This document shows, in pieces, positions 9,211 to 27,045 of a DNA stretch of 38,918 bases (within the stretch, counting starts at the first letter, position 1; every line of letters begins with the position of its first letter). Below the pieces are notes generated by a model. It searched no databases. It saw nothing but the letters and a program-made list of their open reading frames with translations, and was not told where the DNA came from. The translations under genes and the position numbers were made by a program. Origin of the DNA: Ignavibacteriales bacterium. Its GTDB lineage: Bacteria > Bacteroidota > Ignavibacteria > Ignavibacteriales > Ignavibacteriaceae. The DNA lies in the NCBI GenBank assembly GCA_020061465.1, contig JAGUYG010000046.1:1-38918 (forward strand), in the 5' to 3' direction.

Positions 9211-9290
9211 CGAAGGATCCCGAAGGCATTCGGGATAGAATATTCGAATATAAAATTTCTGAATAAGACCTTTTTAGATACGCCTCATGA
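9211..9290 (+). repeat. Dispersed intergenic repeat, copy 1
   Basis: Contains the hairpin ATCCCGAA/TTCGGGAT (9217-9236). The stretch 9221-9259 matches the minus strand of 38785-38823 at 37 of 39 bases, and the end TTTTTAGATACGCCTCA (9270-9286) recurs there too. This marks a dispersed genomic repeat lying between genes. Confidence 0.8.
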
Positions 9291-12300: not shown

Positions 12301-12648
12301 GACAGGGAAGAAAGAGTAAATAATTTTCAAAAGAACGACAAAGTAAAAATCTTTTTGATAAGCTTAAAAGCAGGCGGATTCGGTTTAAACTTAACTGCAG
12401 CCGATTATGTATTTCATTACGACCCATGGTGGAATCCCGCAGTAGAAATTCAAGCTACCGACAGAGCGCACAGAATAGGACAAAACAAGAATGTTTTCAT
12501 TTACAAGTTCATCACAAAAAATTCGGTCGAAGAAAAAATTCTTCTGCTGCAAGAAAAGAAGAGAGCATTAGTTCAGAATATCATCACAAGCGAAACGGGA
12601 GTATTAAAAAACCTTACCAAAGCCGATATAGATATATTATTTAGTTAA
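9340..12648 (+). CDS. SNF2-family helicase with N-terminal SWIM zinc finger
   Basis: DNA-dependent ATPase of the SNF2/Rad54 type, 1102 residues. A SWIM zinc finger at residues 66-78 (CTCPYFETDNCKH) is expected to bind DNA or protein. A long middle region follows, matching the extra domain usual before bacterial SNF2 cores. The ATPase core has Walker A DDMGLGKT (668-675), the DEAH-box equivalent DESQ (766-769), LTGTPIENN, and the C-terminal lobe with SLKAGGFGLNLTAADYV and DPWWNPAVEIQATDRAHRIGQ. Probably a chromatin or transcription remodelling enzyme of general type. It faces the accessory island but lies outside the IS remnants on the opposite strand, so I treat it as a neighbour rather than part of the system. 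The ribosome-binding site is weak. Confidence 0.95.
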   Translation: MSLIQNIWNKHFSEKIRRRGYSYFKDNLVKNLSITDNKVKAVVHGSKRYKVEIEFSNMLEPIVMYCTCPYFETDNCKHLAAVLYAINDVGFFKANLNAQNIKDDSVVQKSPNSAITTTKPSIFNAPSAQVISGQAANESKEKINWEKHLQQEREKQKFTAFKNKVSGLITSKKTKISKTKYKIAYAIGLGTYAHSSTIHVIRQRLLKDGSVGSMELAHDINFDNVEPLDLQERLIVSYLTKTTYDNYVHFGDHYNSPNDIRVKQSFSDILTFLADKEVYLYTGYNLSHKIFIKKEIGYCELLIEDDENNLIIKPIFYIGEEKIQSGTKIQAVLDKPLWILAGNNVFRISNLQYNQLESFFNKEGAILIPKVYLNYFEENVLPQVASMLPIVSSKYSAETIKNTPKKKLFLEESDSLLFIKLKFGYDAFDVEYNEAETITTFISEGKIHRVIRNKILEEQARREIKSFFVKELNAGVFTPRKNPIDFLFNSLSLLRELGFEVFGETELKKYKLNTSKPNISLSVSSGIDWFDVTANIDFNGANLPFEELIELIKKKKRYVQLSDGSVGILPEQWINKFIRTLSLGELEGNKIRFNKFQANALDLILNEADEAEADAAFKEQVEKLNSFEKIKKQLVPKTFKGKLRKYQKAGLDWLYFLQEYSFGGILADDMGLGKTIQVLTLLAKEKTYRQKKPNLIVAPTSVVFNWMLESKRFTPSLKILNHTGSDRIKDNGLHFDKYNAVVTSYAILLRDFELFKQQPFNYVVLDESQKIKNPFSKSARLVKRLNADHRLCLTGTPIENNLNELWSQISFLNPGMLGSLKKFQDAFVKPIQKMNDNEASEFLKKTIYPFVLRRTKELVAKELPPKTEMIHYCEMESEQMKVYELLKDSIRFEIMKEINEKGIKKSGFKIIEGLLRLRQVCNHPVLFDKTYRKNSGKFEEFKEMLGEVLNEGHKVLVFSQFVKMLEVIKEYLNNKKISYEYLTGNTKDREERVNNFQKNDKVKIFLISLKAGGFGLNLTAADYVFHYDPWWNPAVEIQATDRAHRIGQNKNVFIYKFITKNSVEEKILLLQEKKRALVQNIITSETGVLKNLTKADIDILFS

Positions 12649-12681
12649 ACTCCAAATGAAATTAATGCGCCGATTGTTTAA

Positions 12682-12733
12682 CCCGCCTCCTTTTCAGAAC
12701 CATCTTTGGGAAAAACTTCGGCGGGCAGTTTTT
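12682..12733 (+). terminator. Possible terminator after the SNF2 gene
   Basis: CCCGCC at 12682-12687 can pair with GGCGGG at 12720-12725, followed by a run of eight T after CAG. The loop is long (32 bases), so the structure is only moderately convincing. The position, 34 bases after the stop, fits. Confidence 0.4.
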
Positions 12734-12919
12734 TTTAATTGTTTAATTGGGCAATTCTACAGTGGTTCAATTAATATTAAATTTTATAAATTTAAATCTA
12801 ATTACGTGGTTATATGATAGATAATTTTGGAAGGGGGTTAAAGAACAGTATTTAAAATTATAAATAAAAAAATTTAATTTGGATTTTACTAATTATTATT
12901 ATAAACTTTTTGTGTCAAA

Positions 12920-12935
12920 ATCATTGCTGTCCAAA
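12920..12935 (+). repeat. 16-bp direct repeat, left border of the island
   Basis: ATCATTGCTGTCCAAA is identical to 27041-27056, which overlaps the start codon of the helicase gene. It is also the outermost end of IS copy A, where copy B differs at one base. It may be an insertion footprint or shared IS-derived sequence. Confidence 0.6.
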
Positions 12936-13302
12936 TCTGTATCTACATTGCATTTTCAGTTGTTCCTAAAAAAGATTTGATTTTTAGGTTTTGTTTAAGC
13001 TCTTTGAAAAAGGTTTCGATTGACCAACGCTGTTTATATAGTTTTGCTATCGTTGATGCTGTCCAACCTGCCTGACGGCAAGGCAGGGAAAAATTGTTTG
13101 TTATTATCTCCACTTCTGCTTTTTTTCCTTCTGTCATATACACATATTTGGGCATGCAGCCATCATAATCAAGAAGTGTATGCAGTTTTATAGCTCCTTT
13201 TTCCTTTTTATACTTTGCCCAATCGAATACTTTTATACATACACTGATTATTGTACTATCCAGCATAAATATCTTTTTCTTAATGCCCTTAAACTTTTCC
13301 AT
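12920..13302 (-). pseudogene. IS4-family transposase remnant, copy A
   Basis: A defective DDE transposase fragment. It keeps FMLDST with the first aspartate and LYKQRWSIETFFKELKQNLKIKSFLGT with the catalytic glutamate. The stretch between them carrying the second aspartate is deleted: MTEGKKAEV runs straight into EIITNNFSL. A short insertion, PCRQAGW, is encoded by a small palindrome (CCTGCCT...AGGCAGG). A TAG stop replaces the Trp codon TGG that copy B has after TTENAM. Similarity to copy B runs from 12920 to 13290 at roughly 96 percent by hand alignment. Both ends of the element are missing. It forms the left border of the defence-like island. Confidence 0.85.
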
Positions 13303-13366
13303 TCAGCATTTACTTCTTATAAAAATTTTTTATTGCTTATATACCGGACTGAAAGGTAAAGAAAAT

Positions 13367-13394
13367 GTCCAGTTTTTTAATTAAAAAACTGGAC
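13367..13394. repeat. 28-bp perfect palindrome
   Basis: GTCCAGTTTTTTAA is followed at once by its exact reverse complement. The T-rich centre and position, just past the out-of-frame tail of the RNase H-like gene and before IS copy A, would suit a terminator of the minus-strand operon or an IS end. Confidence 0.8.
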
Positions 13395-13410
13395 AAAATT
13401 ACTTGTCGAT

Positions 13411-13644
13411 TCAGGATGCCGATATTGTGTTGTTAAGGCATTCTTCGGTTTTTTTCTTTATTTCTTTAAAAGTCTTATAAATGATAACGTGATGTTGATG
13501 AACATTTTTAAGTCGTATTTTATATATATGATGTCTATGCAATTTTTTAACCAATTCATCATCTGTGTAAACTTTTAATTTTTTCCCTAAGAATTCACCT
13601 TTGAAAATCTCAGCACTTATTTCCCACTGATCACGGACGGTTCC
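13411..13644 (-). other. Out-of-frame continuation of the RNase H-like gene
   Basis: From the AAAAAGG run at 13649-13643, the minus-one frame stays open for 77 codons to a TGA at 13411. The peptide begins GTVRDQWEISAEIFKGEF, continues GKKLKVYTDDELVKKLH and ends EECLNNTISAS. It has no ATG of its own and looks like protein rather than noise: charged and hydrophobic residues alternate, with a helix-like DDELVKKL. It joins naturally after DEYEIHIYKK of the upstream frame, giving a 291-residue product. This is either a frameshift mutation or sequencing error, or a programmed frameshift. Confidence 0.65.
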
Positions 13645-14285
13645 TTTTTATATATGTGAATTTCATATTCATCTTTTACTTTTAGGAATGAATAATTAAT
13701 TTCTTCACCATCAAATTTTCTTTTACCTTGCTTCAGACCTTTTAATGCAATGGAGTCAGAAGTTAATGCTTTCTTCTTCCCCTTTTTTGATAGTCTATCA
13801 GCAGCCTTATTGAATTTGCTGGGGAGAAATTCAATTCGTACCGGACGATAAGTTTTATCTGATAATTTCTTTCGAGTTTTATCAAGTTTTTCTAGTAAGT
13901 CACTATTCTTTATTGCCTTTCCTTCGTAATTATGCCAATTATTTTTTCGCCAATCTTTAATTCTAAAAGGACTTGTTTTTTCATTATCATTTAAACTATG
14001 TCTGTCGGTTGTTATAATTATGGTATTAACATTTTTAAGTGCGTCGTAGTGACGTTCAAACAATTTCAACACTTCTTCCATTCCCTTAATTATAGCTTCA
14101 AGTTCTAAACGTTCTATATTAGCACTGATATATTTTCCTAACTCTAATTTTATAGGGTCTAAAGCAACGGAATCAGGAAATTCGATTTCGATACCAACAC
14201 CACCCGGACTTTTAGGACCATAATCCATAGCAGCATCGCAGTGAATGTAGAGAGCATAAGGATTTATCTTTCTAATCTTTATCAT
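13617..14285 (-). CDS. RNase H-like protein, last gene of the island operon, apparently frameshifted
   Basis: The first 170 or so residues have the RNase H fold acidic set in order: HCDAAMDYG (first Asp), ERLELEAIIKGMEE (Glu), IITTDRHSL (Asp) and FNKAADRLSKKG (last Asp). It may therefore cut the RNA strand of RNA-DNA hybrids or act as a related nuclease. After it comes a second, unrecognised domain beginning near IALKGLKQGKRKF that stops abruptly at EPSVISGK. A minus-one shift at AAAAAGG extends that domain by 77 residues. The gene is 83 bp downstream of the zinc-ribbon/AlbA_2 gene, on the same strand. In a defence context it could process R-loops or invader transcripts, but that is inference. 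The fold call rests on motif spacing only. Confidence 0.7.
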   Translation of the reverse strand: MIKIRKINPYALYIHCDAAMDYGPKSPGGVGIEIEFPDSVALDPIKLELGKYISANIERLELEAIIKGMEEVLKLFERHYDALKNVNTIIITTDRHSLNDNEKTSPFRIKDWRKNNWHNYEGKAIKNSDLLEKLDKTRKKLSDKTYRPVRIEFLPSKFNKAADRLSKKGKKKALTSDSIALKGLKQGKRKFDGEEINYSFLKVKDEYEIHIYKKEPSVISGK

Positions 14286-14368
14286 AAATGAAAAGAAAGC
14301 TTAAAAATTTTCTATGTGACAACAACAGCTTTATTTATATTTTAAGTTTATTGCTCAAGTGTTTTGTA

Positions 14369-15475
14369 TTAAAATCTTTTGTTCCTATTCTTATAATTGT
14401 CTGCATCATCATCGGTCAATTCCACAGTTCTATTTCCATCGCGAACAAAAAATTTATGATCTAAATAATACCATTTATGGTTTGCTTTATTTACAACTAC
14501 ATTGCAAAAAGTAAATCCCTCAAATTCAGTGAAGTAAATATCTATCAGCCCAGATACTTCTTTTGAAATATGAGAAGATATAAAATCTCTGAGTGTTAGC
14601 TGATAGTTATCAGTATTTTTATTTTCTATTAAAACACCGATTAAATAATAATTTGAGAAAGCCTTGTATCTAATTTTGCTGATTTCACTTAGCTTAAATT
14701 TGTCCATCTCAACTGCACCAATCAGAATGTACCCACCGGAGCTATTTAGAAAAGCTGCAATAGACTTTAACACACCAATCTTAACATCTTTTTGTTTATT
14801 GCTTCCTTTCAATAGGTGATTAAGGTCTAATTGTAAAGAACCTTTTACTTCAAGATTCTTATTCTCCTCTTTTAATAATTTTTCAATTGGTAAAATAGGT
14901 GTGTTAAAATTTATGAATGTTTTTGAATGATTTAACTCATCAACTTTAGCAATACCTTTGCCCGTTAAATGACCACAAAATCCATTAAATGCAGGGCGAT
15001 CGCGTAAATCTATAGTAGGATTTTCCATTTCTATGTAGCCATCTTTTAGCAAACGATCTAATAGGTTTATTACTTGCTGTTGATTTTTAGCACCAATCAA
15101 AGCAGGTAAATTTTTTGTAAACCCATCTATTGAATCTAAAGAATTATTAGATTGGTACCCAAACCATTGAAGTAAGTTATTTAGTTGTTCAGAGGTAGTT
15201 GGCAGTTTAAAAGTGCTTAATATCTCTTCGTATTTGTCACGATCGATAAAAATAGGATTTTCTGAAGATGTATTATTTCTAATAAAATGACTTACTATAG
15301 CTTTAGTATTTGCATCATTAAATATCGGAGTAAATCTGTACGCCATTAATGAAATAATAAAATCCCCACAGTTAGGACATTGATATAACCGTGAGCGACC
15401 AGCACCATGGTATGGAGTTGAAGGAATTCTTTCAAACTCACATACGGGACAGTTTGCAGAAGGTAACTCTATCAT
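14369..15475 (-). CDS. Zinc-ribbon protein with C-terminal AlbA_2 (Schlafen-like) domain
   Basis: A 368-residue protein. The N-terminus has a four-cysteine zinc ribbon (CPVC at 9-12, CPNC at 33-36). The middle region, to about residue 195, contains segments that look helical and may be winged-helix-like. The C-terminal part has NLEVKGSLQLDLNHLL near residue 207 and LKSIAAFLNSSGGYILIGAVE near 240-258. These are the E-x-K and GGxLxIGV signatures of the AlbA_2 (formerly AAA_4 or DUF4) domain shared with Schlafen proteins. It ends FFVRDGNRTVELTDDDA, as members do. Such domains occur in nucleic-acid-binding regulators and some RNA-cutting Schlafens. It lies 57 bp downstream of the DUF499 ATPase gene. 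It could be a sensor or effector; no characterised match is known to me. Confidence 0.72.
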   Translation of the reverse strand: MIELPSANCPVCEFERIPSTPYHGAGRSRLYQCPNCGDFIISLMAYRFTPIFNDANTKAIVSHFIRNNTSSENPIFIDRDKYEEILSTFKLPTTSEQLNNLLQWFGYQSNNSLDSIDGFTKNLPALIGAKNQQQVINLLDRLLKDGYIEMENPTIDLRDRPAFNGFCGHLTGKGIAKVDELNHSKTFINFNTPILPIEKLLKEENKNLEVKGSLQLDLNHLLKGSNKQKDVKIGVLKSIAAFLNSSGGYILIGAVEMDKFKLSEISKIRYKAFSNYYLIGVLIENKNTDNYQLTLRDFISSHISKEVSGLIDIYFTEFEGFTFCNVVVNKANHKWYYLDHKFFVRDGNRTVELTDDDADNYKNRNKRF

Positions 15476-15532
15476 ATCAATGTTTAATTGGTTTCAACTT
15501 TTGTTTGTATTTTATATTGTGTTGTTCGAGCA

Positions 15533-18076
15533 TTATTCTTTTATTCTTATCCCACTCATTGCTAATGCTTCTTTGATTTTATCTTCAAATTCTTGTTCGG
15601 TTATTTTTCCATCTCTGACTTTTATTTCTAATTCTAAAACATTGAACTTGCTTTGTAAGTAATTTAGGATGCCCATTAGATTAGCTATTTTCCCTTTGGG
15701 TATATTAAGATTCAGTGATATAGATTCTAAATATTCTGCTGTAAGAGGTGTAGCAGATGCACCATTTTTAACCCCACTCTCAACCTTTTTTGATTCATCT
15801 TCAGGAAATTGAAATTGAGTGGCTCCAGCCGTTTCAGCTTTTTCCTTCTCTTGTTCTAAACAAATTTTATCTGTGATAAGGATTTCATTACCGGAGAATG
15901 ATAAGGAAGGATATTGTTTGAAGTATCTGCACACAGGTTTATCGTCAATTAGTTCACCAATACCAAATATACCTTGCTTGCATCCTTCTTGAATACCGTG
16001 TTCAATTACTAATTTGCTTATTGGTCTGACTTCTCCAGGTGTTTTTAGAGCTGCTAAGTATAAATTTTCTGTGGGAACGTAATCTTTGTTTGTGAGATAT
16101 TTTGTTTTGATGACAATGGGCGGCATTGATTCAAGAATCTCTTTACCTCTCAAATGTTCATAAATAGCATAATCGAGTTCAACAGTATCACCGTGAATAG
16201 GAGTTCCCAAATCTTCAGGTTCTTTGATTCCTTCTTTATTTGGAATAGCTATAACTCTATATAACCTTCTAATATATTCTTTAAGATTTCCTTCTAATTT
16301 TTTTATTTCTTTTTTAATATCTCTTTTCTGATCTTCGCTTAGGTTTAAGGTTTTGTCTTCCTCTATTTTTTCATACGCAATTTTTCTTCTTAACGTAGTT
16401 AAGAATCCGTAACGTTCACTTTCTAAAGGATATAAAAAGAATAAAGTATTTCTATAAACTCTTGGTGATAATCCCTTATTCTTAATTATTTCAAGAATTG
16501 TATTTTTATTTTCACGCTGATGTATAATTAATTTCAAGTCCTCTGTATCGGGGATGTTTGATGAGGCTTCTTCCCAAATGTATGTTTTAAATTTGCTGCC
16601 GGATATCGAACCTCGTAATAATTTTAATTCCAATTCTTTTAGTTCATCATCCTTAACATTCTCCATTTTATTGAAAAGAATTTTGGTAAGGTTGGGCTGA
16701 TTATCGAAATAATATTTATCATCCTTCACGTGTAAAAAAAAGAGAGATTTTTCGAGCTGCGAAAGTGCGTCGCCAATTACTGCTGCGGGATTATCAAGAG
16801 TAGTGGCGAATCTTTTTATTTCATTTAATGTTGCACCTCTAACTTGTCCGCCGGAGAAAGAACTCATAAAAATAGATGAAGCAATTCTATGACCAAGATT
16901 CAAACCTACATAAGCTCTGCCGAGATTTTTGTCAACACGATGTGCACCGGAATCTTTATTAGTAATATCAACAGCAATAATTCCGTTGAAAGTAGTTTCA
17001 ATATGCTTTAGCAATTCTTGTCTTATTTCTTGAATTGATAAATTAAAATCGGCTAAGCTGATATATGGGATGGGAGATTTGCTTAATGAATGAATTACTA
17101 AAGATAATAATCTTAATACACCTCTGGTTCTCTGAAAAGTTGAGAAGGTTCCCCATCTTGTATAAAGAAAATCCACTACCTCTGGAAGGAAGGGATATGA
17201 AGCAAGAAATTTTTCTTTATATTCATTTGTTTCTGAACCATTCGGTAAGATATTTTCTTTTTCGGCATACTTAACGAAATCATTTACAATTTTTTTAGAG
17301 TTGTTTTCGTTTATCTCTTGAAATAATCTTTGTCTTATTATTTTGGTTATTTCATTTTCTTCTACCGGTGTATAAATAATTTCTTTTCTGCCGGAAACTT
17401 TTTTCAATTGCATATAAAGCTTTTCAGCTTGCTCATCGTAATGCTCTATGATACTTGACGGAAGAGTTACCACTAAAACAGATTTATCTAATTCGGATAC
17501 TATCTCTGTTAGCTCTTGCATAAAAGCGATTGTTTGAGCGCCAAGAGTGCTTCCGCCAACTTTTTCCACAGCAGCTTTTGTAACATATTCGAGCAGCTCA
17601 TCAATTAAAATAATTAATGGCTGGTGCTGAAGTAATAATTCTTTGAGTGCTATTTTGCCAGGTGCAGAGTTTCCCTTCATCTTGTTTACTTTACCGGCGA
17701 GTTGTATTTCCAGCAAACTCCATAAAGTAGTAGATGCGGGAAGTGAAGTCCCTACAATTACGGTAGGTTTCACCTTCCATTCTTTTGATTTATGATACAT
17801 AGCAATAAGAGAGTGGGTTTTTCCACCGCCAAACGGAGTCTGAAGTTGGATAACAGGATCACCGCCTTTTCCATCGAGACGTTTCTTAACAACATCTAAG
17901 AGGTTTGAAAGTCCTTGAGTTAAATATGTTTTTGAGAAGAATGTATCTGCATACTTATATTCTGCCGGACCACTTTTTTGACTTACAGCCCAAAGATCGG
18001 CAGCAAAAACATCCATCGTAAGCCGACCTTCGAGTATGTCTTTATGAGGAATTGCAATTGTGTGAAATGCTTTCAT
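15533..18076 (-). CDS. DUF499 family P-loop ATPase (defence-system ATPase)
   Basis: An 847-residue AAA-like ATPase. Walker A is TPFGGGKTH at residues 80-88 and Walker B is LIILIDE at 154-160, followed by ELLEYVTKA. VVTLPSSIIEHYDEQAEKLY and RTRGVLRLLSLVIHSL match the DUF499 pattern. The C-terminal end (KFNVLELEIKVRDGKITEQEFEDKIKEAL) is the usual small terminal domain. DUF499 proteins accompany DUF1156 methylases and SNF2-type helicases in anti-phage loci, as the ATPase of what I know as the Hma grouping. Its promoter region is unusual: the 148-bp gap upstream carries six TTGGCTAA-like boxes, so it may be transcribed or repressed separately from the first four genes. The exact action of DUF499 ATPases is not established. 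Confidence 0.88.
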   Translation of the reverse strand: MKAFHTIAIPHKDILEGRLTMDVFAADLWAVSQKSGPAEYKYADTFFSKTYLTQGLSNLLDVVKKRLDGKGGDPVIQLQTPFGGGKTHSLIAMYHKSKEWKVKPTVIVGTSLPASTTLWSLLEIQLAGKVNKMKGNSAPGKIALKELLLQHQPLIILIDELLEYVTKAAVEKVGGSTLGAQTIAFMQELTEIVSELDKSVLVVTLPSSIIEHYDEQAEKLYMQLKKVSGRKEIIYTPVEENEITKIIRQRLFQEINENNSKKIVNDFVKYAEKENILPNGSETNEYKEKFLASYPFLPEVVDFLYTRWGTFSTFQRTRGVLRLLSLVIHSLSKSPIPYISLADFNLSIQEIRQELLKHIETTFNGIIAVDITNKDSGAHRVDKNLGRAYVGLNLGHRIASSIFMSSFSGGQVRGATLNEIKRFATTLDNPAAVIGDALSQLEKSLFFLHVKDDKYYFDNQPNLTKILFNKMENVKDDELKELELKLLRGSISGSKFKTYIWEEASSNIPDTEDLKLIIHQRENKNTILEIIKNKGLSPRVYRNTLFFLYPLESERYGFLTTLRRKIAYEKIEEDKTLNLSEDQKRDIKKEIKKLEGNLKEYIRRLYRVIAIPNKEGIKEPEDLGTPIHGDTVELDYAIYEHLRGKEILESMPPIVIKTKYLTNKDYVPTENLYLAALKTPGEVRPISKLVIEHGIQEGCKQGIFGIGELIDDKPVCRYFKQYPSLSFSGNEILITDKICLEQEKEKAETAGATQFQFPEDESKKVESGVKNGASATPLTAEYLESISLNLNIPKGKIANLMGILNYLQSKFNVLELEIKVRDGKITEQEFEDKIKEALAMSGIRIKE

Positions 18077-18090
18077 TTGAGAATTCCTTA

Positions 18091-18216
18091 TTGGCTAAAT
18101 TGTTCTAAATATTGGCTAATCATTGGCTAAAAATATTTTGATTTTTTAACTAGAACTAAACATTTATAAATTTTATTAGCTAAAACATTGGCTAATTATG
18201 GTTAACAATTGACTAA
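18091..18216. promoter_or_regulatory. Array of six TTGGCTAA-type boxes in the DUF499 promoter region
   Basis: TTGGCTAA occurs exactly at 18091, 18112, 18123 and 18188, with one-base variants TTAGCTAA at 18176 and TTGACTAA at 18209. Successive spacings are 21, 11, 53, 12 and 21 bases: near whole helical turns and symmetric about the middle. Such an arrangement suits a cooperative DNA-binding regulator acting on the DUF499 gene. The binding protein is unknown. The AlbA_2/HATPase protein encoded just upstream is one candidate. Confidence 0.65.
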
Positions 18217-18224
18217 TTACAGAA

Positions 18225-19883
18225 TCATTTAAGCTTCCATTCAGATGCCTTAGTCTTGCCAGTCTTGATAATTGTTTTGTCTTTATGAGCCATTTCGAAA
18301 AGTAAATTTTTTACTTTGGCTTTCTTTTGCTTTTCATTAAGTACATCTGAAATCTTTGTAAGCAGCAAATCATGCAATTCCTTACGTGTGGCTTTACCAT
18401 ACTTGGAGATATATTCTATGATCAAATCTTTATAGTATTTTTTATCAAAAGCCCGATTTCGTATATATTTGGCTCTATCACCAGAATAATATGTTACTGA
18501 ATAGCTTACAAAGATATTAGGGAATCGACCTTCAACTAATCTTTTTTGTTTTAAAAGTTTATATGCGTCCTTAGAAATTATTTTTTTCTTTTGCACCGAA
18601 TCCAATAGCATAACGGTTTGCAAACCGAGAGAATCATTGGCACTTAAAACACGCGAATAATTCTCATCCAAAACTTTTCCATAAATTTTAACAGTTACTT
18701 CATCAGGTATATCCAATTCATACGTAGGCAAAGGGAAAAATCTTTCTCTCTGTTTTATAAACATTTTCTTTATTCCGCTGCCAATAGTATCGATCATATT
18801 AACATTAACCATAAGTTCAGCTAATAATTGATTCCGATAATAACGCTGTGGTGCGTCTTGAGTAATTACTGTTTCAATAGATTGAGGTATAAAGCTGCCG
18901 GCATTATTAAAAATTAATTCATCATCTTTTTCAACAATAATGATACGGCTATTAAGAAAGTAATCTTGATGGGCTATGCAGTTGTGCAAAGCTTCACGTA
19001 TTACCCAGGGTTCGTATTTAAGAATTTCCTCGGGGAATAATGTATTATCGGGAAGATACCGATACTTTAGATTTCTTATTTTTTTTAAAATAGCTTCTGA
19101 ATTAAGAATAAATGGCGGATCAAAATGTTCATAGTCAATTTCGAGGTTCTGCTCATTCTTTAATATCCATGACATTTTAGCAACTGATGGTGAAATTAAG
19201 TGAACTGATTCAGGCTTACCTAAAATTATTATTGCAGCTCTGGTGACTTGTCCTTGTACAGCAGCTTTTATTTTGTTAAGAAATGTTTCATCATTCCATT
19301 TATCAACATCATCAGCAAGTTTTTGGTTTTTCTTTTTATACTCTATTCTTGCTTTTTGAATCGCATCTTTATCGAGATCATTTAACGTAGCCCCAGGACA
19401 AACTTCCCCGGACCAGTCAGTTTTCTTTTGGCTTCTTATGATTTCAATTTCTTGAATGCTAAGAGGAACTAAAGATTCACCATCTCTCCCATATGAAATT
19501 CTTTTCCAGGTTACTGGTATTCCGAGAGGGGCAGGTGGTATTTGGAAAAGAATAACCCTACCCTCAGGCAAGTTTAACGTGCGTATTTCAATAAAAGTAA
19601 TATTGCTATTTGTATGCTGCGATATCTCATGTTTTAAACTATGCAGCTTACCAATATCTCTTCTAAAATTAGTACCGACAATCTCTCTTTTATTGTTTAC
19701 ACCAAATACAAGCCAACCGTTCTGCTGGTTTTTTAAGTTAGCTTCATTGCTTAAAGCTGAAAAATATTCTCCAAGATCATCGAAATGAAAACTATCCTTG
19801 GCATGTTTAAATTCAACCCATTCAGTTTCACCTGATAAAGCTAATAATTCAGTTAATGTTATTTTAAGTTCTTCTTCTGTCAT
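18225..19883 (-). CDS. AlbA_2 domain protein with HATPase_c_4-like C-terminal region
   Basis: A 552-residue protein of the type often annotated as ATP-binding or RecG-like transcriptional regulator. The AlbA_2 domain spans about residues 10-150 (ETEWVEFKHAKDSF, NGWLVFGVNNKREIVG, RISYGRDGESLVPLS). A GHKL-like ATP-binding region follows near residues 290-400 (IREALHNCIAHQDY, DDELIFNNAGSFIP, DTIGSGIKKMF), and the C-terminal region is winged-helix-like (YISKYGKATRKELHDLLLTKI). It starts 13 bp after the methylase stop, inside the operon. It could regulate the operon, or take part in sensing invaders as Schlafen-like proteins have been proposed to do. No ribonuclease active site was recognised. The domain call is firm; the role is open. 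Confidence 0.85.
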   Translation of the reverse strand: MTEEELKITLTELLALSGETEWVEFKHAKDSFHFDDLGEYFSALSNEANLKNQQNGWLVFGVNNKREIVGTNFRRDIGKLHSLKHEISQHTNSNITFIEIRTLNLPEGRVILFQIPPAPLGIPVTWKRISYGRDGESLVPLSIQEIEIIRSQKKTDWSGEVCPGATLNDLDKDAIQKARIEYKKKNQKLADDVDKWNDETFLNKIKAAVQGQVTRAAIIILGKPESVHLISPSVAKMSWILKNEQNLEIDYEHFDPPFILNSEAILKKIRNLKYRYLPDNTLFPEEILKYEPWVIREALHNCIAHQDYFLNSRIIIVEKDDELIFNNAGSFIPQSIETVITQDAPQRYYRNQLLAELMVNVNMIDTIGSGIKKMFIKQRERFFPLPTYELDIPDEVTVKIYGKVLDENYSRVLSANDSLGLQTVMLLDSVQKKKIISKDAYKLLKQKRLVEGRFPNIFVSYSVTYYSGDRAKYIRNRAFDKKYYKDLIIEYISKYGKATRKELHDLLLTKISDVLNEKQKKAKVKNLLFEMAHKDKTIIKTGKTKASEWKLK

Positions 19884-19896
19884 AAAACTTTTTAAA

Positions 19897-22605
19897 TTAT
19901 TCTTCGAATAAATCTCCTTGTGGTTTTTTCCTTGGGCCGGTTTCTTCGGTCAGTCTTTCTCTTAAGTTTAAGAAACCATCAAGTAATTTTTTTTCTTTGC
20001 TTTCATTTGGCAGAGTTTCTGAAATAGCTTGTGCTACTCTATAAAATGCTTCGCTCTTACCATATCCGGTGTTAGTTAATAATTGAATAATTTCATTTCG
20101 CTTACTTTTTTCCCAAAGTAGTAATGAATAATGAAGTACGTCAATTAATTCAGTTGCATTTTTTAATTGATCTATTTTTCTATCCTGAGGACCAAGAATA
20201 GAAACAAACTCTTTATCCTTTTTGATAAATCCTTCTTTATTCCATTCGTTTGCTAAATCAATACTGCAACTATGAGAAAGCTTATTCGCTTCATCAAAAG
20301 GAATTTTTGCTGAGCCAAATTCCCAACGAGTGAGAACATAAAACCTTGTTAAATCTGAAATCTCTGAAGCAAAACCATTATGCAATATTTTTCTAACAGC
20401 ATAGTCTGTTACAATTACACGAACTTCCTGTAAAAATTTATCTGCACGGATTTCTCTGCCTTCAAAGTCTATAACTTTCACGTATTTACTATAAACTTCT
20501 AACGATGAACCAATAGCTGCAATGAAGAAGTCTGCACCGCTTATCCCATCAGCCCATAATTTATCAAGTTTTTCGGAAAGATATAATTTTAATTCTTCTT
20601 TAATTTCTTGATAAAATTTAGTTGGTAATTTTTCATACTTCCTGGAAATGATATAAATAGAAGAAGCCAATGCTGCTGATTCACTTGCTCTAAGTCTTGC
20701 TTCTTTCTCAGTATTTAATGGCCAAGCACTCGTAACAATAAGCCCTGAATCAATCAATGAATTTATTAAAGTTTCCCAACCTTCGGTAGATTTATGAGCA
20801 TATACAATTATAGATGTTCCATTATTTTTTAATATTCTAAAAATTTCTTGAAATGATTTCTTAAGCATATCTTCAAAGAATTTTTTACCAGCATCAAAAC
20901 CACCAGGAATATTTGAATAAGCAACAATTTCATCTCTTTTAGGTGTAAGTGGTGTTGAAAATAATTCTGGATAATCATTATTGAGTATTCTTTTTAGCCA
21001 TACATAAAAAAAATCTGATAAATAAGAGTATGGTATATTATCGTAATATGGAGGATCAGTAAAGACGGCATCGAAGGAATTATCCTCATAAGAAAGTTTA
21101 TTTGCCGACATTTGGCTGACATTACCAGATTCACCCGTATTAGAAATAGAATCAATAACTTTCCAGATACTTCTAAAAGCCATACTTTCCCAACTACCAA
21201 CTGATTGTGTAATTGGATTTATTTCAGAATAATCCCAAATAAAAGGTAATGCATTTCTATTTAACATATGATTTGTGATTTCAAAAACATTATTCCATTG
21301 GCACAAATTATTTGTATAATCAGTTACTCTTGATAAGCTTATACCTAAATAAGATTTCACAGCTTTAGAATATTCTTTGTCTTCAGAATTTATATTTATA
21401 GAGCGAATATGTTTTATAAAGGTTAATAGTGATAGTTTTTGACGAGAATTAAATAAATCGCCCCAATTCTTCATATTATAAGCTTGGATTCTAAAACCAA
21501 GCGTACCACGTATTGGTAAACTTTCGTCAGGAATTGGATTTATACCTATTGTGGTTTCAAGTTCAATTTCCAAGTTTTTAAGTTTTTGGTAAGCAAGTTT
21601 GAAAATCTCATAATCATTATTATTTGCAATTCTGTATTTCCTTTCAGAAATACCAGGCTTTTGAGTTACAACTGCAACTAATCTTTCAGATGATGAATAA
21701 TTATGAAACAATTTTTTTGTGGTTTTTGCATCAATTGTATTACCACAAAGAGGACAAGTAACTATTGCTCTATTAACAGTTCCATTTTCTGGTTTAAAAC
21801 CAGAAGGGAAGTTTCCATAAGCATCCCCAACTATTTTAAATTCAACCTTATTGTTATTTACAGAAGGAAAAAGAGCAACCTTTCTTTTAGTTTTTTTAGC
21901 TAACCAGAATTGCCGCATCAAAGGTATTTCCACACCACAAGAAGGATTTTGGCAAGGAATTGTTCTTGCCCAAATGTAAGCAATAGGGACTGATCCATCA
22001 GGATCGTTTGGATAAAATTGAACAAGTTCTTTTTTAGCTTTTTTAAGAATCCAATTTCCCCAAAATTTTACATCTTCTAATAAAACATTATCAACTTTCT
22101 GTTTTATTTTTTTCTTTTTTCCAAATTCTTCAACTTCTCTTTCAATATAACCGGGTTTACCATATTTCTGCGGGTATTCAAGAGTGCATTTTTGTATAAG
22201 CACAGCAACAGGGTTTAAATCGTTAGAGTAAGTCTCGCAGCCAAGACGCAAACATTCAAGAGGGATTGAACCGCCGCCGCCAAAGGGATCTAAAACTTTG
22301 GGCGGTTTGCCACCATAAGCTTTAAGAATTTTCTTGCGTGCTCTTTCAATCATTTTTGGGTTATTAGTGTTTTCCCACTTGGCAAAGTCAATTATAAATT
22401 GTCTTTCCTCATTCCATTCATCAATATCTTTTGGCGCGGGTATTAGCGCAGCATAAGCAGTAGCACGGGAAGCAGCAAGAGGGCGTCTTGCCCACCAGAT
22501 ATGGAGAGTTGAGATATGTCCGTGCCTAATATTTTTTTCTTTAGCAGAAATAGCACTTACTTCTTTAACGGGAAAAGATTCTTCTATGAAGCGTTTATCG
22601 GGCAT
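19897..22605 (-). CDS. DUF1156 adenine-specific DNA methyltransferase
   Basis: A 902-residue methylase. Residues 1-60 are the DUF1156 domain (RHGHISTLHIWWARRPLAASR). The S-adenosylmethionine site is VLDPFGGGGSIPLE near 104-117, with NDLNPVAV at 128-135. Two zinc-binding pairs follow (CQNPSC near 213, CPLCG near 284). The catalytic TDPPYYDNIPYSYLSDFFY lies near 515, an N6-adenine or N4-cytosine type motif. This family is the methylase of several anti-phage loci and probably marks host DNA, by analogy with DISARM and Pgl/BREX. It starts nine bases after the PD-(D/E)XK gene stop. No separate restriction subunit is fused to it; the helicase and nuclease-like neighbours would supply that role. The recognition sequence cannot be read from the gene. 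Confidence 0.93.
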   Translation of the reverse strand: MPDKRFIEESFPVKEVSAISAKEKNIRHGHISTLHIWWARRPLAASRATAYAALIPAPKDIDEWNEERQFIIDFAKWENTNNPKMIERARKKILKAYGGKPPKVLDPFGGGGSIPLECLRLGCETYSNDLNPVAVLIQKCTLEYPQKYGKPGYIEREVEEFGKKKKIKQKVDNVLLEDVKFWGNWILKKAKKELVQFYPNDPDGSVPIAYIWARTIPCQNPSCGVEIPLMRQFWLAKKTKRKVALFPSVNNNKVEFKIVGDAYGNFPSGFKPENGTVNRAIVTCPLCGNTIDAKTTKKLFHNYSSSERLVAVVTQKPGISERKYRIANNNDYEIFKLAYQKLKNLEIELETTIGINPIPDESLPIRGTLGFRIQAYNMKNWGDLFNSRQKLSLLTFIKHIRSININSEDKEYSKAVKSYLGISLSRVTDYTNNLCQWNNVFEITNHMLNRNALPFIWDYSEINPITQSVGSWESMAFRSIWKVIDSISNTGESGNVSQMSANKLSYEDNSFDAVFTDPPYYDNIPYSYLSDFFYVWLKRILNNDYPELFSTPLTPKRDEIVAYSNIPGGFDAGKKFFEDMLKKSFQEIFRILKNNGTSIIVYAHKSTEGWETLINSLIDSGLIVTSAWPLNTEKEARLRASESAALASSIYIISRKYEKLPTKFYQEIKEELKLYLSEKLDKLWADGISGADFFIAAIGSSLEVYSKYVKVIDFEGREIRADKFLQEVRVIVTDYAVRKILHNGFASEISDLTRFYVLTRWEFGSAKIPFDEANKLSHSCSIDLANEWNKEGFIKKDKEFVSILGPQDRKIDQLKNATELIDVLHYSLLLWEKSKRNEIIQLLTNTGYGKSEAFYRVAQAISETLPNESKEKKLLDGFLNLRERLTEETGPRKKPQGDLFEE

Positions 22606-22614
22606 TAAAAACTC

Positions 22615-23607
22615 TTAATTATTTTGCATTAATCTTTTAGTGAACTCTGAAAAGGTGACACAACGGTTCGCGGGAATCATAGCGGCAATCCAATCTTTAC
22701 CTCGCCCTTGCTTTCTTCCGCCATCCTTTTGCAGATTCTTAGTTAGCTTCAAAGGTTTATCTAAAAAGAAATAGGTAAACGTTTCATTGTCACTTCCTAA
22801 TTTGACACCTTTTATCCAATCATTTACTAAAGGCGTATTTGTGGTAAAGTTTTTAATATCTGTTTCAAAATTTTCAATATCTGACGCTTTTAATGTTAGA
22901 ATACCTAAAATTTTTGATAGATATGGAATGCCCACCCCTTCTTCTTGATTAGCATAATTTGTAAAATGCGGTGCAAAATAAAGAGGGCTGCCAAGCGTTT
23001 CCGGTCTTCGATAAACATTAAACTCTTTGAAGCGTTTAATTTCATTTGGTTCAGATAAATCTTGAATAAGAATTTCTTTTTGATATTTCATATTATAGTT
23101 CTTTATTGAAAATGATAAATATTCTTTCATTAAAGGTTTTGTAAGCCAATATTTGGTATCGAATATTAGGTTAATATCTTCCCATCCCACATAATGAATA
23201 ATAATACCTTCAGCTTTTTGTTTATTATGATCTCTTTCTTGAGTTATAAAGCAAAGAAATTTTTCTGGAATATTCGGATCAAACGAATTTAGATACTGCG
23301 TTCTCTGGTGAAGAACTTTATTTTTACGGACCTTTGATTCAATAAAAATTTGAAACCATTCGTCGTATTTCGTTTCTATGTCAATACGACCTTCTTTTCT
23401 ATTATACTCTGTAACTATAGAAATATTCTTAAAATTTTCTTTAGTATTTTTTATTCTAATTCCAAGGTATCTTAAGAAATCAAATAAAGCCACAGGTTCT
23501 GATGCTAAAAGAAACGCAAATGCTTTTGATAGTGCTTTTTCATCATCGCCTAATAAATCAAAGCGATTCAATACCGTTTTAGGATGTCCAGCTTTTTTAA
23601 TTAACAT
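22615..23607 (-). CDS. PD-(D/E)XK nuclease-like protein
   Basis: A 330-residue protein starting three bases after the helicase stop. The N-terminus has DLLGDDEKALSKAFAFLLASEP, a helix with a conserved acidic residue as in PD-(D/E)XK family members. GRIDIETKYDEWFQIFIESKV supplies Asp76 and Glu90-x-Lys92, the core of the fold. A C-terminal half (about 190-330) is unrecognised. It would be the DNA-cutting candidate in a locus that has no phospholipase-D-like DrmC gene. The motif is clear enough to propose the fold, but catalytic activity is unproven. Its tight packing between helicase and methylase suggests co-translation. Confidence 0.75.
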   Translation of the reverse strand: MLIKKAGHPKTVLNRFDLLGDDEKALSKAFAFLLASEPVALFDFLRYLGIRIKNTKENFKNISIVTEYNRKEGRIDIETKYDEWFQIFIESKVRKNKVLHQRTQYLNSFDPNIPEKFLCFITQERDHNKQKAEGIIIHYVGWEDINLIFDTKYWLTKPLMKEYLSFSIKNYNMKYQKEILIQDLSEPNEIKRFKEFNVYRRPETLGSPLYFAPHFTNYANQEEGVGIPYLSKILGILTLKASDIENFETDIKNFTTNTPLVNDWIKGVKLGSDNETFTYFFLDKPLKLTKNLQKDGGRKQGRGKDWIAAMIPANRCVTFSEFTKRLMQNN

Positions 23608-23610
23608 TAG

Positions 23611-26600
23611 CTAATTACTTATTTTACCTTTTGATTGAATTTGATCTATTGAGATTAAATATCTGACTTCAACTTTCTGTTCTGCTGATAAAATTTCAGA
23701 AGGATTATTTATTATATAAAGCTTTGGTTCTTTGGAACAATTCATAACAGCATAGAGATAATATTCATTCTTAAAACGGTTTGCTTTAAACCATTCATTT
23801 TGTGTTAGTGCAACAGCACCATTAGCAGCACGGGATTTAACTTCGATATAACGAATGTTTCCATTCTTGTCCTTTGATCGGATATCGTAACCGAGATTTT
23901 CCTTACAAATGTCTTCTGGAAATCTGCCTTGTTCTATTTCATATTTCATCGCGGCTTCCATTCCAATTTTTTCAATCTCAGGATCGCTTTGCATTACATC
24001 CGGTATTGGTTGCAAAGGAATTACTTTAATTATTCCTCTGAATTTTGGAGAACTCATTGTTAAGCTTTTTTCTCTTACAATTTGTTCTGCTAAATCCTGT
24101 TTGGCTTTTTCATATTCATTTTTGCGTTCTTCTTTATTACGTATAGCAACGTCCATATTTTCACCAGTTTCTTTACGCTGGTAATAAGTAATTAGTTCAC
24201 CATCCAGCTTTACTAATAAAATCTCTAATGATTTAATGCCATACTTTTCTTTAATATCAGCTTGCCGTTTTCTTTCCTGAGTTAATTCTTTTTTATACTC
24301 TTCCAGCATTTTAATGCAAAGTGAAGATGTCTTTTTCTTCAATGAATCTATGTCAACGGATTCGGAATGATTTTCGGTTATTTCAGACAGATCCCAAATA
24401 ATCGAGGAAGGGACAATCTTTATTTCCTTGTCGTCAACATATAAACAAAAGAGACGCTTTCCCGCAACTGTCCCGATTCCATCTTTAATTTCACCCTCAT
24501 AAAAAATAATATATCCGTTCAGGTTGCTATCAGGATCACCAAATACAGCACCCTGAAGAAGTGAATCAAGATGATTCTCTTCTATCCAAACCATTACTGA
24601 TTCAAAGAGAGGATGCCCGAAGGTAACAAATTCAGCATCTGAATTTTTTTGAGCAATGTCTTTATCAAAAGTAATCTTCGGATATTTTTTTAACAATTCA
24701 CCAAAAGATTTTTTAATCGAATCTTTCTCGGCTATTTTTCTTAACTCATAAGGAACGGAATCAATTGAGAGAAAACCTTTTGTTGTAGTTTTATATTTAC
24801 CGGAAATTTTATGGAATGCTTTCTTAAAATAACTTTCTGTGTATTCAGGGATAAGTTTATACTCTCTTGCTTTAGCTTCCATTTCTTTTATGCGGGTGTA
24901 ATCAATAAATCGGGTAGCAAGACTTTCACCAAGACTTTCTTTTACATCTTTAATATAATCTTCATTAACAACTATGTCTATCTCTTTTAATATTTCATCA
25001 ATATCTCTTGCGTTGGCAGCAGCATCCATAAGAAGCTGAGCAAGATTTGTATGAGTCATTATCTCACCCAAAACATCAAATACTTTGTCATTGCCCATCG
25101 CATTTTTAATCTCATCAAGCTTCGCAAAAAGTCGTGTTAAAACTCGTCCTTCACGGGTATCATTAGCAACGAGGTTAAAGATAAATACTTCACGGGTCTG
25201 ACCGTAACGATGGATGCGTCCCATTCTTTGTTCAAGCCGGTTTGGATTCCAAGGTATATCATAGTTAATCATCATATTACAGAACTGAAGGTTAATACCT
25301 TCACCGGCGGCTTCAGTAGCAATTAGAACTTCAGTTTCATTTTTAAAAACTTTTTCAGCATTTACTCTGTCTTCTAACCTCATACCGCCGTGAATAGTAT
25401 TAGAAGAATATCCCCAGTCACTTACTTTTTTCTCCAAATAATCTAAAGTATCTCTTGATTCCGTAAATATCAGAATTTTTCTTTGTTTAGGATTGGAATA
25501 CCTTTCATATAAACTTGAGAGAGATTTTTTAAGTTCTTTTAATTTAATTTCTTCTTCGTTTATAATTATTTCTTTTGCACGCTGAATTAATTTGTCAATA
25601 GTTGAAATTTCTTTTTCTAACTCTTCGCGATTTTCAGCAACACTAAGAGTTTCCCAGATTTCTTCCTCTTGCCATCGTTCCTCTTCGCTAAGATCTTCAT
25701 AATCTTCTATGTCGGTTCGAAAGTTATTTGTTTGTGATCTCTCAAGAGAAGTCTCAAGCAATTCTTCAAGCTTTCTTTTTCTTCTTTCCAAAGATTTTAG
25801 CAAAGCATAAGTACTTGATGCCAAGCGGCGCTGAAGGATAACAAGTGCGAAGGTTACATTTCTTTTTTTATCTCTATTAAGAGCCAAATTATATTGCTGT
25901 TCAACATACCTGGATAATTCATTATAGAGTTCAGCTTCATTCTTTGATTGCCTTCCCAAATTAAATGGTATGGTTTCAACATATCTTGGAAGGAAAAGTG
26001 GTTTTCCCTCAAAATCTTTTAAATCTTCTTTTACTCTACGGATAAATAAAGGGTTATCCTGATTTCGAATTGATTGCTGCACCATATCGTTGTTAGCAAA
26101 GAAACCTGGTTCAAGCAGGTCTAAAAACAATCTAAAATTTTCAGGATCTCCTTTATGAGGAGTTGCGGTTAAGAAAAGAAGATTAGTGGTAATGCGAGAT
26201 AAACTTTCTCCAAGTCTATATCTACCTGTCTTAGTTGTTTTATCACCATAGCGGTAAGCACTCATTTTATGTGCTTCGTCTACAACAATTAAATCAAAAT
26301 GCGCAGCAGCTATGGAAGGAAGTATTTCATCACGTTTAGCAAAATCAATTGAGGTAATAATCTGTCTTTCCCTTGCCCAAACATTCTCGGCATAATGTGC
26401 ATCAAGAATACTCCTATCAACAAGAACAAAATTTTCTTCAAATCTTTCTTTTAACTCTCTACGCCACTGATCTTTAAGATGACCAGGTAAAACAATTAAA
26501 ATTCTACTTACAAGATGGCGCAATTTCAATTCTTTTAAGATCAAACCAGCCATTATAGTTTTACCAGCACCAGGATCGTCAGCAATAAGGAATCTTATTC

Positions 26601-27045
26601 TTGGCATCTTTAGAACAAAGCCATACACAGCTTCAATCTGATGAGGCAAAGGATCAACCTTTGATGTGTTCATTGCAAGCAAAGGATCATAAAGAGAAGC
26701 GAATCTATAGCGAATAGTTTCTAATGAAAGAAAAACTTTCCAGGGTTCATTGGTAAAATATTTTTGAGGTATCTCAATTGAAAAGCTGTTAAGCTCTTCT
26801 TTAGAAATTAACTGATCAATATGTGTGTTACTATAAGTTGTGGAACCAACTATGTGGAAGTAATCCCCATCTTCTTCTACCAATTTCAATTCAACTGGCT
26901 CATTCCAATTGGGACCTTTTAGGATTGTACCGGGTTTGATATTCAATATAAAGATTCCTTCATTTATAAAGATAAATTTAGTTAAATCAGGATGGGATTT
27001 AAAGAGTTTTCCTTCTTTTCTTGCGATTATAATTGCCTTTATCAT
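23611..27045 (-). CDS. SNF2-type superfamily 2 helicase with C-terminal DUF3883 (DrmD-like)
   Basis: A 1144-residue helicase and first gene of the operon. The N-terminal family segment is IKPGTILKGPNWNEPVEL (residues 36-53). Walker A is DDPGAGKT (156-163), DEAH is at 256-259, and FLTATPHKGD follows. The second lobe has TEAAGEGINLQFCNMMINYD and RLEQRMGRIHRYGQ. A long insertion around 380-520 is charged and coiled-coil-like. The C-terminus (GYDIRSKDKNG...YIEVKSRAANG) is DUF3883, a nuclease-fold domain common in defence helicases. It resembles DrmD of class 1 DISARM and the helicase of the Hma grouping. The ATG at 27045 has only a weak ribosome site and sits inside a 16-bp direct repeat. A TTG at 26946 with AAGGA upstream is an alternative start just before the conserved domain. 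Confidence 0.93.
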   Translation of the reverse strand: MIKAIIIARKEGKLFKSHPDLTKFIFINEGIFILNIKPGTILKGPNWNEPVELKLVEEDGDYFHIVGSTTYSNTHIDQLISKEELNSFSIEIPQKYFTNEPWKVFLSLETIRYRFASLYDPLLAMNTSKVDPLPHQIEAVYGFVLKMPRIRFLIADDPGAGKTIMAGLILKELKLRHLVSRILIVLPGHLKDQWRRELKERFEENFVLVDRSILDAHYAENVWARERQIITSIDFAKRDEILPSIAAAHFDLIVVDEAHKMSAYRYGDKTTKTGRYRLGESLSRITTNLLFLTATPHKGDPENFRLFLDLLEPGFFANNDMVQQSIRNQDNPLFIRRVKEDLKDFEGKPLFLPRYVETIPFNLGRQSKNEAELYNELSRYVEQQYNLALNRDKKRNVTFALVILQRRLASSTYALLKSLERRKRKLEELLETSLERSQTNNFRTDIEDYEDLSEEERWQEEEIWETLSVAENREELEKEISTIDKLIQRAKEIIINEEEIKLKELKKSLSSLYERYSNPKQRKILIFTESRDTLDYLEKKVSDWGYSSNTIHGGMRLEDRVNAEKVFKNETEVLIATEAAGEGINLQFCNMMINYDIPWNPNRLEQRMGRIHRYGQTREVFIFNLVANDTREGRVLTRLFAKLDEIKNAMGNDKVFDVLGEIMTHTNLAQLLMDAAANARDIDEILKEIDIVVNEDYIKDVKESLGESLATRFIDYTRIKEMEAKAREYKLIPEYTESYFKKAFHKISGKYKTTTKGFLSIDSVPYELRKIAEKDSIKKSFGELLKKYPKITFDKDIAQKNSDAEFVTFGHPLFESVMVWIEENHLDSLLQGAVFGDPDSNLNGYIIFYEGEIKDGIGTVAGKRLFCLYVDDKEIKIVPSSIIWDLSEITENHSESVDIDSLKKKTSSLCIKMLEEYKKELTQERKRQADIKEKYGIKSLEILLVKLDGELITYYQRKETGENMDVAIRNKEERKNEYEKAKQDLAEQIVREKSLTMSSPKFRGIIKVIPLQPIPDVMQSDPEIEKIGMEAAMKYEIEQGRFPEDICKENLGYDIRSKDKNGNIRYIEVKSRAANGAVALTQNEWFKANRFKNEYYLYAVMNCSKEPKLYIINNPSEILSAEQKVEVRYLISIDQIQSKGKISN

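Follow-up and report, generated by a model that had tools for sequence, protein, structure and literature searches.

The largest gap inside a defence operon of the 38,918-nucleotide stretch of Ignavibacteriales DNA analysed here (the window) is filled with a row of near-identical short boxes, raising the question of which neighbouring gene these boxes belong to and what they might do there. The operon carries a Hma system, as HmaA, HmaB and HmaC are encoded on one strand, in that order and in one operon, and the array lies between the gene for a 552-residue protein and hmaC. In the order of transcription, the operon contains the following.

23611..27045, - strand: HmaA helicase with a NOV_C domain, the first operon gene (PADLOC HmaA, 1.1e-201)
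22615..23607, - strand: PDDEXK_4 nuclease-like protein (Pfam)
19897..22605, - strand: HmaB, a DUF1156 DNA methylase (PADLOC HmaB, 2e-135)
18225..19883, - strand: 552-residue SLFN_AlbA_2/HATPase_c_4 protein, the candidate binder of the boxes (Pfam)
18228..18476, - strand: C-terminal tail of that protein, residues 470-552, a predicted winged helix and candidate box reader (swap breakpoint near 18443)
18077..18224, - strand: array-filled gap of 148 bp
15533..18076, - strand: HmaC, a DUF499 ATPase, the first gene past the array (PADLOC HmaC, 4.9e-117)
14369..15475, - strand: 368-residue protein with a Schlafen AlbA_2 domain near its C-terminus (Pfam)
13617..14285, - strand: 222-residue RNase H-like protein (below the Pfam cut-off)

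The 552-residue protein scores well above the Pfam cut-offs for both of its domains (SLFN_AlbA_2, 59.5 bits against 25.3; HATPase_c_4, 41.5 bits against 26), which places it in the AlbA_2/HATPase family. The whole Hma operon is flanked by a 377-bp direct repeat (12920-13296 and 27317-27689, 94% identical) with DDE_Tnp_1 transposase fragments at both copies, as if the operon had been moved or framed by insertion-sequence remnants. A separate 39-bp inverted repeat (95%; 9221-9259 and 38785-38823) links distant parts of the contig.

Within the 148-bp gap we find six TTAGCCAAT-like boxes, four of them exact and two with one change, starting on the + strand at 18091, 18112, 18123, 18176, 18188 and 18209, at spacings of 21, 11, 53, 12 and 21 bp. 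On the coding (-) strand the boxes read TTAGCCAA, and conservation of a ninth base extends this to TTAGCCAAT.

18208..18216, - strand: box 1, TTAGTCAAT, one change, 8 bp past the stop codon of the putative regulator
18187..18195, - strand: box 2, TTAGCCAAT
18175..18183, - strand: box 3, TTAGCTAAT, one change
18131..18174, - strand: AT-rich spacer separating two box clusters
18122..18130, - strand: box 4, TTAGCCAAT
18111..18119, - strand: box 5, TTAGCCAAT
18090..18098, - strand: box 6, TTAGCCAAT, 13 bp ahead of the hmaC start codon

Four exact 9-mers were reached in none of 5000 dinucleotide shuffles of the gap (three were reached in 7), and only 4 of 3877 tiles of 148 bp across the window, all four of them over the array, hold at least four. 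When one mismatch is allowed the excess is milder, with six copies where shuffles average 2.5-2.9 (p = 0.01, the lowest value that these shuffle tests allow). Because one-mismatch matches are not in excess over the window as a whole (48 against 50 expected), it is the clustering of the boxes that is unusual. Indeed, ATTGGCTAA occurs 58 times in the organism's own 4.2-Mb genome, with pairs no more than 30 bp apart at the array only. The first-pass annotation had described six copies at these spacings in the only large gap of the operon, a description that the shuffles, the confinement of clustered copies to this one place in the genome and the lengths of the remaining gaps (3, 9, 13, 57 and 83 bp) all bear out. 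The AT-rich spacer resembles by eye that of the arrays in two related genomes (G431 and G450) and falls within a BLAST alignment to the G431 locus, L079. A scan of 18000-18320 for sigma-70-like promoters found none, a weak pointer, as the promoters of this phylum may differ.

Comparison with other genomes indicates that the boxes go with the 552-residue protein rather than with the DUF499 ATPase. Of 80 genomes of the family, five contain three TTAGMCAA boxes in a row (gaps of at most 30 bp), and none contains the reversed control pattern; every one of the five sites follows a homologue of the 552-residue gene, immediately in four genomes and after about 140 bp in G132. Three of these five genomes (G431, G450 and G132) have no HmaC match at E<=1e-30. 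One genome that has both genes (G409) carries a variant array of TTAGACAAT boxes. The annotation had tied the array to the DUF499 gene and proposed looking for the same boxes ahead of related DUF499 genes, a link that we reject: the same box class is found in the three genomes without an HmaC match, and none of 10 tested gaps before HmaC relatives has an array at p<=0.05 where the AlbA_2/HATPase homologue is absent, that is, where the DNA examined has no tblastn match to this protein at E<=1e-30. Its nomination of the 552-residue protein as the likely binder fared better, since the boxes track the homologues of this protein. By these genomic associations, the boxes belong to the Schlafen-AlbA_2/HATPase protein encoded just upstream of them. 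As for HmaC itself, no relatives were found in phages and viral contigs, and those on plasmids are at most about 31% identical among the matches listed (best 20 of 140).

Homologues of the 552-residue protein were matched in 16 of 80 genomes of the family, 29 of 395 in a phylum sample and 16 of 391 in a class sample, as well as on plasmids and at other loci. These samples overlap, and removal of duplicates left 57 loci, which are not all independent, as close relatives remain (e.g. L126/L148 and L147/L151); most are from genomes of one phylum, together with Alphaproteobacterial plasmids, a few viral contigs and other plasmids. We scored gaps blind, taking the best 9-mer (one mismatch, both strands) against shuffles, with other gaps of the same loci as controls. 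A repeat array lies behind the gene at p<=0.05 in 35 of 57 homologue loci, compared with 19 of 200 control gaps (Fisher p 5e-15), and homologues as distant as about 40% identity still have arrays behind them. The box sequence varies by locus and includes, besides TTAGCCAAT and TTAGACAAT, TTAGAAAAG, TTAGAAGAG, TTATAAGAG, TTATGGACA, TTAGACATT, TTAAGAGAA, TTAGTCGCG, TGCAGAATAA, TTGATAGTA, TTACGATTG, TATGCGAAC and more. Some of the 22 loci below the threshold show two or three boxes by eye (e.g. L053, L130 and L086); the same by-eye reading behind the gene found no boxes in L152, L155 and L117 and weak ones at best in L137. A shared central motif of the TTATAAA kind was present, within the first 150 bp, in 15 of 56 loci against 8.6 expected, too weak to use.

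One alternative is that the repeats reflect chance or low-complexity drift in AT-rich gaps. Shuffles of AT-rich sequence do often give 2-4 one-mismatch copies, and the 19 control gaps exceed the 10 expected by chance at p<=0.05; the best-scoring control matches include second copies of a locus's own array (L145 and L147) and a degraded array (L129). The shuffle result for four exact copies in the window, and the difference between homologue loci and control gaps, with arrays persisting to about 40% identity, already contradict this explanation, and we find it scarcely credible. In one control gap (L005:4487-4770) we noted eight copies of an AAATTAG-type repeat, with no regulator gene linked in the sequence read.

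Beyond these close homologues the picture is mixed. On viral contigs the array is significant in L157 (p 0.010) and L073 (0.005) and not in L158 (0.275), L159, L162, L077 and L076; L074, L075, L160, L161 and L170 (a phage record) were left out of array scoring. Seven records of plasmid relatives at 22-28% identity, taken from among more matches, gave p 0.005 for L165, 0.055 for L167, 0.20 for L169 and 0.985 for L163, and 0.130 for L164, where four boxes are nevertheless plain by eye; in L166 and L168 the homologue gene overlaps the next gene and leaves no gap. Two of three remote genome homologues (L064-L066) reach p 0.01. Arrays, as scored here, are common in the core clade and patchy outside it.

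The spacing of the boxes suggests that they are read on duplex DNA. Hand calling of boxes in 37 loci (with a single box in three of them; 20 of the 57 were left out) yielded 86 neighbour spacings, which fall at 9-13, 20-23, 30-36, 53-56, 65-68 bp and higher, with none at 14-19 or 24-29, and the 37 long spacings in this set have R = 0.70 at a period of 11.0 bp. As hand calling could favour regular spacing, we repeated the analysis on automatically called boxes, keeping a single locus from each group of tails at 80% identity; the 28 long spacings in this thinned set gave R = 0.51 at 10.75 and 11 bp (Rayleigh p ~7e-4, eleven periods tried), a weaker result in which off-phase spacings such as 14, 24, 25, 27, 46 and 58 bp appear. 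L131, a near-perfect 12-bp tandem array, was excluded from the hand-called statistics and from one automatic-spacing row. The helical phasing proposed in the first-pass annotation for the window is thus found across many arrays, and fits proteins stacked along one face of duplex DNA. The near mirror symmetry that it also reported is not strict in relatives, where two box clusters commonly flank a spacer of some 50-90 bp. Most boxes repeat in the same direction on the coding strand, several arrays also contain inverted copies, and many boxes are purine-rich. Of 21 loci, 9 have their last box 8-45 bp ahead of the next start codon, and the other 12 have it 91-229 bp away. A gene upstream is no more than 20 bp away in 22 of the 49 loci with one listed. 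On the downstream side, 50 loci have an ORF listed; in 35 of them one on the same strand begins no more than 340 bp away, and in 15 there is none at that distance. In L079, L080 and L081 the next same-strand ORF of at least 100 residues lies 858-1805 bp off, and these modules, as annotated, are orphan or terminal; the array is not always at the front of a gene.

If the upstream protein reads the boxes, the part of it that does so should change when the box changes, and natural variants point to the C-terminal tail. The proteins of L079 (from G431) and L081 (from G132) are 93% identical over residues 19-389 and 91% over residues 390-465 but 52% in the tail (469-552), and their boxes differ (TTAGCCAAT versus TTAGAAAAG). 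Conversely, the window protein and that of L079 are 56% identical over residues 19-389 and 87% in the tail, and have the same box. L080, L081 and L086, whose tails are 77-83% identical, have a box in common, even though L086 is only 65-66% identical to L080 and L081 over residues 19-389. The corresponding DNA of the window and L079, compared in 60-nt steps, is 48-72% identical up to around nt 1440 and 82-92% thereafter, and a BLAST alignment of the two extends 120 bp beyond the stop codon, into the array. L079 and L081 show the opposite pattern, 80-97% and then 60-68%. These natural domain swaps break sharply near codon 480.

The arrays behind two of these genes are stacked. Past the stop codon of L081 lie a TTTAGAAAAG array at 0-119 bp, a TTAGMCAAT array at 132-230 bp and, at 350-441 bp, a relic of a TTTAGAAAAG array that is 80% identical to the array of L086. 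L079 has its TTAGCCAAT array at 18-116 bp, followed by the same relic at 250-353 bp, again 80% identical to the L086 array. The second array of L081 aligns to the array of L079, and the region 13-436 bp past the stop codon of L079 aligns as a whole to 138-526 bp of L081 at 75%. The simplest reading of these alignments is that new tail-plus-array cassettes were placed ahead of old arrays at least twice.

The association between tail and box extends beyond these cases. Among 30 of the 57 loci (435 pairs; array p<=0.1, identity >39%, protein >500 residues, near-duplicates removed; the automatic box of one of them, L091, falls in coding sequence and is wrong), box similarity tracks tail identity with residues 19-389 allowed for (partial r 0.29, Mantel p 0.001), whereas in the converse comparison, the rest of the protein with the tail allowed for, the signal is weaker (0.13, Mantel p 0.023). 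We conclude that the box reader is probably the C-terminal tail, the last ~85 residues, and the presumed reading head and its boxes seem to have been exchanged together as one cassette.

The predicted structure of the tail is compatible with such a role. In a full model of moderate quality (mean pLDDT 70, pTM 0.48), residues 481-552 (pLDDT about 75-90) form a winged helix, with helices at 477-495, 500-508 and 517-534 and two strands; the tail modelled alone has pLDDT 80. VIA-align places winged-helix chains on the tail, including MecI (Z 9.3, rmsd 2.5 over 66 residues), with MCM and cullin domains scoring above MecI, and a Foldseek search with the tail alone gave no match at E<=0.001, many of its rows being winged helices and several of them DNA complexes. 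The C-terminal winged helix is thus present by prediction only and, as winged helices are common and cullin and MCM domains outscore MecI, the fold does not prove DNA binding. Elsewhere in the protein, residues 4-414 align to DIP2311 (PDB 3lmm; Z 19.1, rmsd 14.8), which is the best match in both the structure searches and the profile search and is a structural-genomics entry named only as an uncharacterised protein. Residues 1-153 align to SAMD9 domains (Z 9.1 and 8.6), and Schlafen structures are weak matches in profile and structure searches.

The AlbA_2 domain invites a different interpretation, in which the array acts as RNA, either as mRNA repeats that a Schlafen-like protein binds or cuts or as an RNA that restrains an RNase in the manner of a Type III toxin-antitoxin system. 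Some of the Schlafen and SAMD9 domains that the AlbA_2 domain resembles are called tRNases, and an RNA role would suit boxes that are mostly coding-strand direct repeats, many of them purine-rich and some adjoining a start codon. Spacing by helical turns over tens of bases, however, is expected for DNA and not for single-stranded RNA, several arrays contain inverted copies, and the box sequence tracks the predicted winged helix. Moreover, the array of the window folds no better than its shuffles (z 0.15), and an Rfam search of the operon region (12000-28000) matched no family. We therefore think it unlikely that the array works as RNA.

Another possibility is that the methylase of the operon itself recognises the boxes, and that their methylation state would report whether the host DNA is protected before the restriction half is switched on. 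Type III and BREX recognition sites are short, asymmetric and different between systems, and the boxes too are short, asymmetric and system-specific. In two Rhodobacterales plasmid systems (L089 and L090) with Res 99% identical, Mod (51%) differs along with the regulator tail (71%) and the box, as this explanation would have it; residues 19-389 of the regulator are 97% identical between the two, kept while Mod and tail diverged. Against it, one box class, TGCAGAAT/TGCAGAAA, lies behind regulators whose upstream genes differ (nearest gene only): an N6_N4 methylase in L147, an Eco57I/PglX-like methylase with PglZ after the array in L133, and a SIS/GATase gene, no methylase, in L141. Likewise, the window and G431 share a box, yet G431 is without an HmaC match, and box identity tracks the regulator tail. 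We regard methylase sites as quite improbable and return to the preferred reading of the boxes as sites for the upstream-encoded protein.

The window is one of several kinds of operon that carry this module. Assigned by Pfam, record annotation or homology, with counts that cover assigned loci, the arrangements are these.

HsdS, regulator, array, HsdR: L125, L128, L143 and the remote L066; HsdR also after L064
Eco57I/PglX-like methylase, regulator, array, PglZ: L133 and L136; L087 with PglZ after the array
Methylase, regulator, array, helicase (Type III mod/res by gene order), on Rhodobacterales plasmids: L089 and L090; L091 by Res homology, 85%
Array ahead of ResIII: L053
MmeI, regulator, array, DEAD helicase: L130
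Hma: the window; L069 and L005 with HmaC after the array

As assigned above, Hma, BREX-like, Type I, Type III and MmeI-like operons all contain the module. In 16 loci the array is followed by a restriction, ATPase or PglZ gene, and in six by a gene for a DNA methylase (L082, L134 and L138, each with ResIII upstream, and L148, L127 and L153); in L147, L151 and L131 the next gene encodes a YhcG nuclease (YhcG/DUF1016 by Pfam in L147 and L151). The array tends, in these gene orders, to part the methylase from the restriction or ATPase genes, in either order. This supports the idea in the first-pass annotation that the site splits the operon. Its rationale, that the methylase must act first, does not generalise, because the split occurs in either gene order and the gene past the array is itself a DNA methylase in those six loci. 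In L145 and L147 a second array copy lies ahead of a long ORF (1033 and 1029 residues) whose start reads like Res, which fits an operator that needs to precede the gene it controls. The full layout in L147, and likewise in L145, is array, fragment resembling the start of res, YhcG/DUF1016 nuclease gene, second array and Res-like ORF. Separately, in L126, L127 and L154 the gene for a second AlbA_2/HATPase protein, of 416-499 residues, precedes the main homologue at a distance of 97-141 bp; judged from these ORFs, the family does have tandem members, and five genomes of the phylum sample have two or three homologue matches.

Taking the arrays, their phasing, their link to the gene, their co-inheritance with the tail and the tail's predicted fold as what the sequences themselves provide, we infer that the boxes form an operator array read by the protein encoded upstream and controlling the second half of the operon, a reading to which we give a probability of roughly 0.7. 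Several copies of the Schlafen-AlbA_2/HATPase protein would line up along one face of the DNA, with the C-terminal winged helix of each copy recognising a single box. Because the array lies between the 552-residue gene and hmaC, the complex would control transcription entering the DUF499 ATPase gene and the two later genes, apart from the helicase, nuclease and methylase genes. Repression of an internal promoter, or a roadblock to elongation, would be likelier than activation, since the box clusters flank an AT-rich spacer and often lie close to the next start codon. A signal of infection or of metabolic state may act through the ATP-binding domain to release the complex or hold it tighter. 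Joint exchange of the reading head and the adjoining array would keep co-resident systems from regulating each other; diversification of the boxes is expected if such cross-talk is harmful. More broadly, the module may be a plug-in control unit that has spread to orphan sites and to no fewer than five classes of defence operon (Hma, BREX-like, Type I, Type III in both gene orders, and MmeI-like Type II), evolving as an orthogonal operator code in which the arrays stacked behind the gene record earlier exchanges. The protein may also serve as an RNase effector that is kept on the array until disturbance of the DNA by phage frees it. We consider this extension possible but doubtful.

Less is known of how large defence systems such as BREX, Hma, Type I and Type III are controlled than of how they stop phage. 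The present analysis adds one family of candidate regulators: most of the gene copies examined (35 of 57) are followed by a row of repeats that resembles an operator, and natural domain swaps connect the box sequence to a segment of about 85 residues. Three questions become testable: does a protein classed as a backup RNase regulate transcription, in what way does its DNA code change, and are the two halves of a defence operon expressed under separate control? Among the literature matches listed, titles and the openings of abstracts give no account of these arrays, with most subscription papers and bioRxiv outside the coverage; the arrays look new, while regulated RM operons as such are already known.

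The closest relatives described are the Schlafen-HATPase-wHTH proteins of BREX and BREX-related systems, present in at least 1017 taxa, in a survey that treats Hma as a DUF499-centred BREX-related system (PMC12839542). By their description these proteins have the same architecture and the same neighbourhoods as those studied here. They are classed there as backup RNase effectors and not as regulators, which counts against the operator reading; the words operator, intergenic and promoter are absent from the main text of that source as available (PMC12839542). COG2865 has one mention in the available text of PMC7641849, in a figure legend.

A functional parallel is RptR, a 9-kDa protein, homodimeric in its solved structure; according to the available text it acts on three 9-bp direct repeats, TTTAGCTAA, to repress a defence island of Type I RM genes, and its minimal site is the palindrome TAGCTA at the operon's main promoter (PMC12255303). 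Both cases involve a dedicated regulator of an RM operon and a short row of 9-bp repeats, and TTTAGCTAA is near one of the window boxes. The protein here, in contrast, has 552 residues with AlbA_2, HATPase and predicted winged-helix parts, and its boxes are mostly non-palindromic, locus-specific and placed inside the operon, behind the regulator gene. The likeness does raise the question of whether the boxes are sites of a small separate regulator such as RptR, or of a host factor, and TAGCTA is indeed contained in the window box at 18175-18183 and in the boxes of L140. An RptR operator would carry it in every repeat, and only 1 of 6 window boxes has it; clustered boxes occur nowhere else in the window's own genome, and the site of a host factor should not vary with the tail of a neighbouring protein. 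We judge a separate regulator highly improbable and retain the 552-residue protein as the candidate. Within the operon, no gap exceeds 148 bp, where a small HTH controller gene would not fit, and among ORFs of at least 80 residues the first operon gene found is HmaA.

The C (controller) proteins of Type II RM systems are small HTH proteins. They differ from the window protein in having no AlbA_2/HATPase part, and we know of no exchangeable tail-plus-array cassette among them. They are likewise local regulators of RM expression, as far as the available text of the two sources describes them (PMC3874152, PMC12707154). C proteins that act on each other's systems can cause mutual exclusion of RM systems, and such exclusion would supply a motive for operators as diversified as those described here (PMC12707154, available text).
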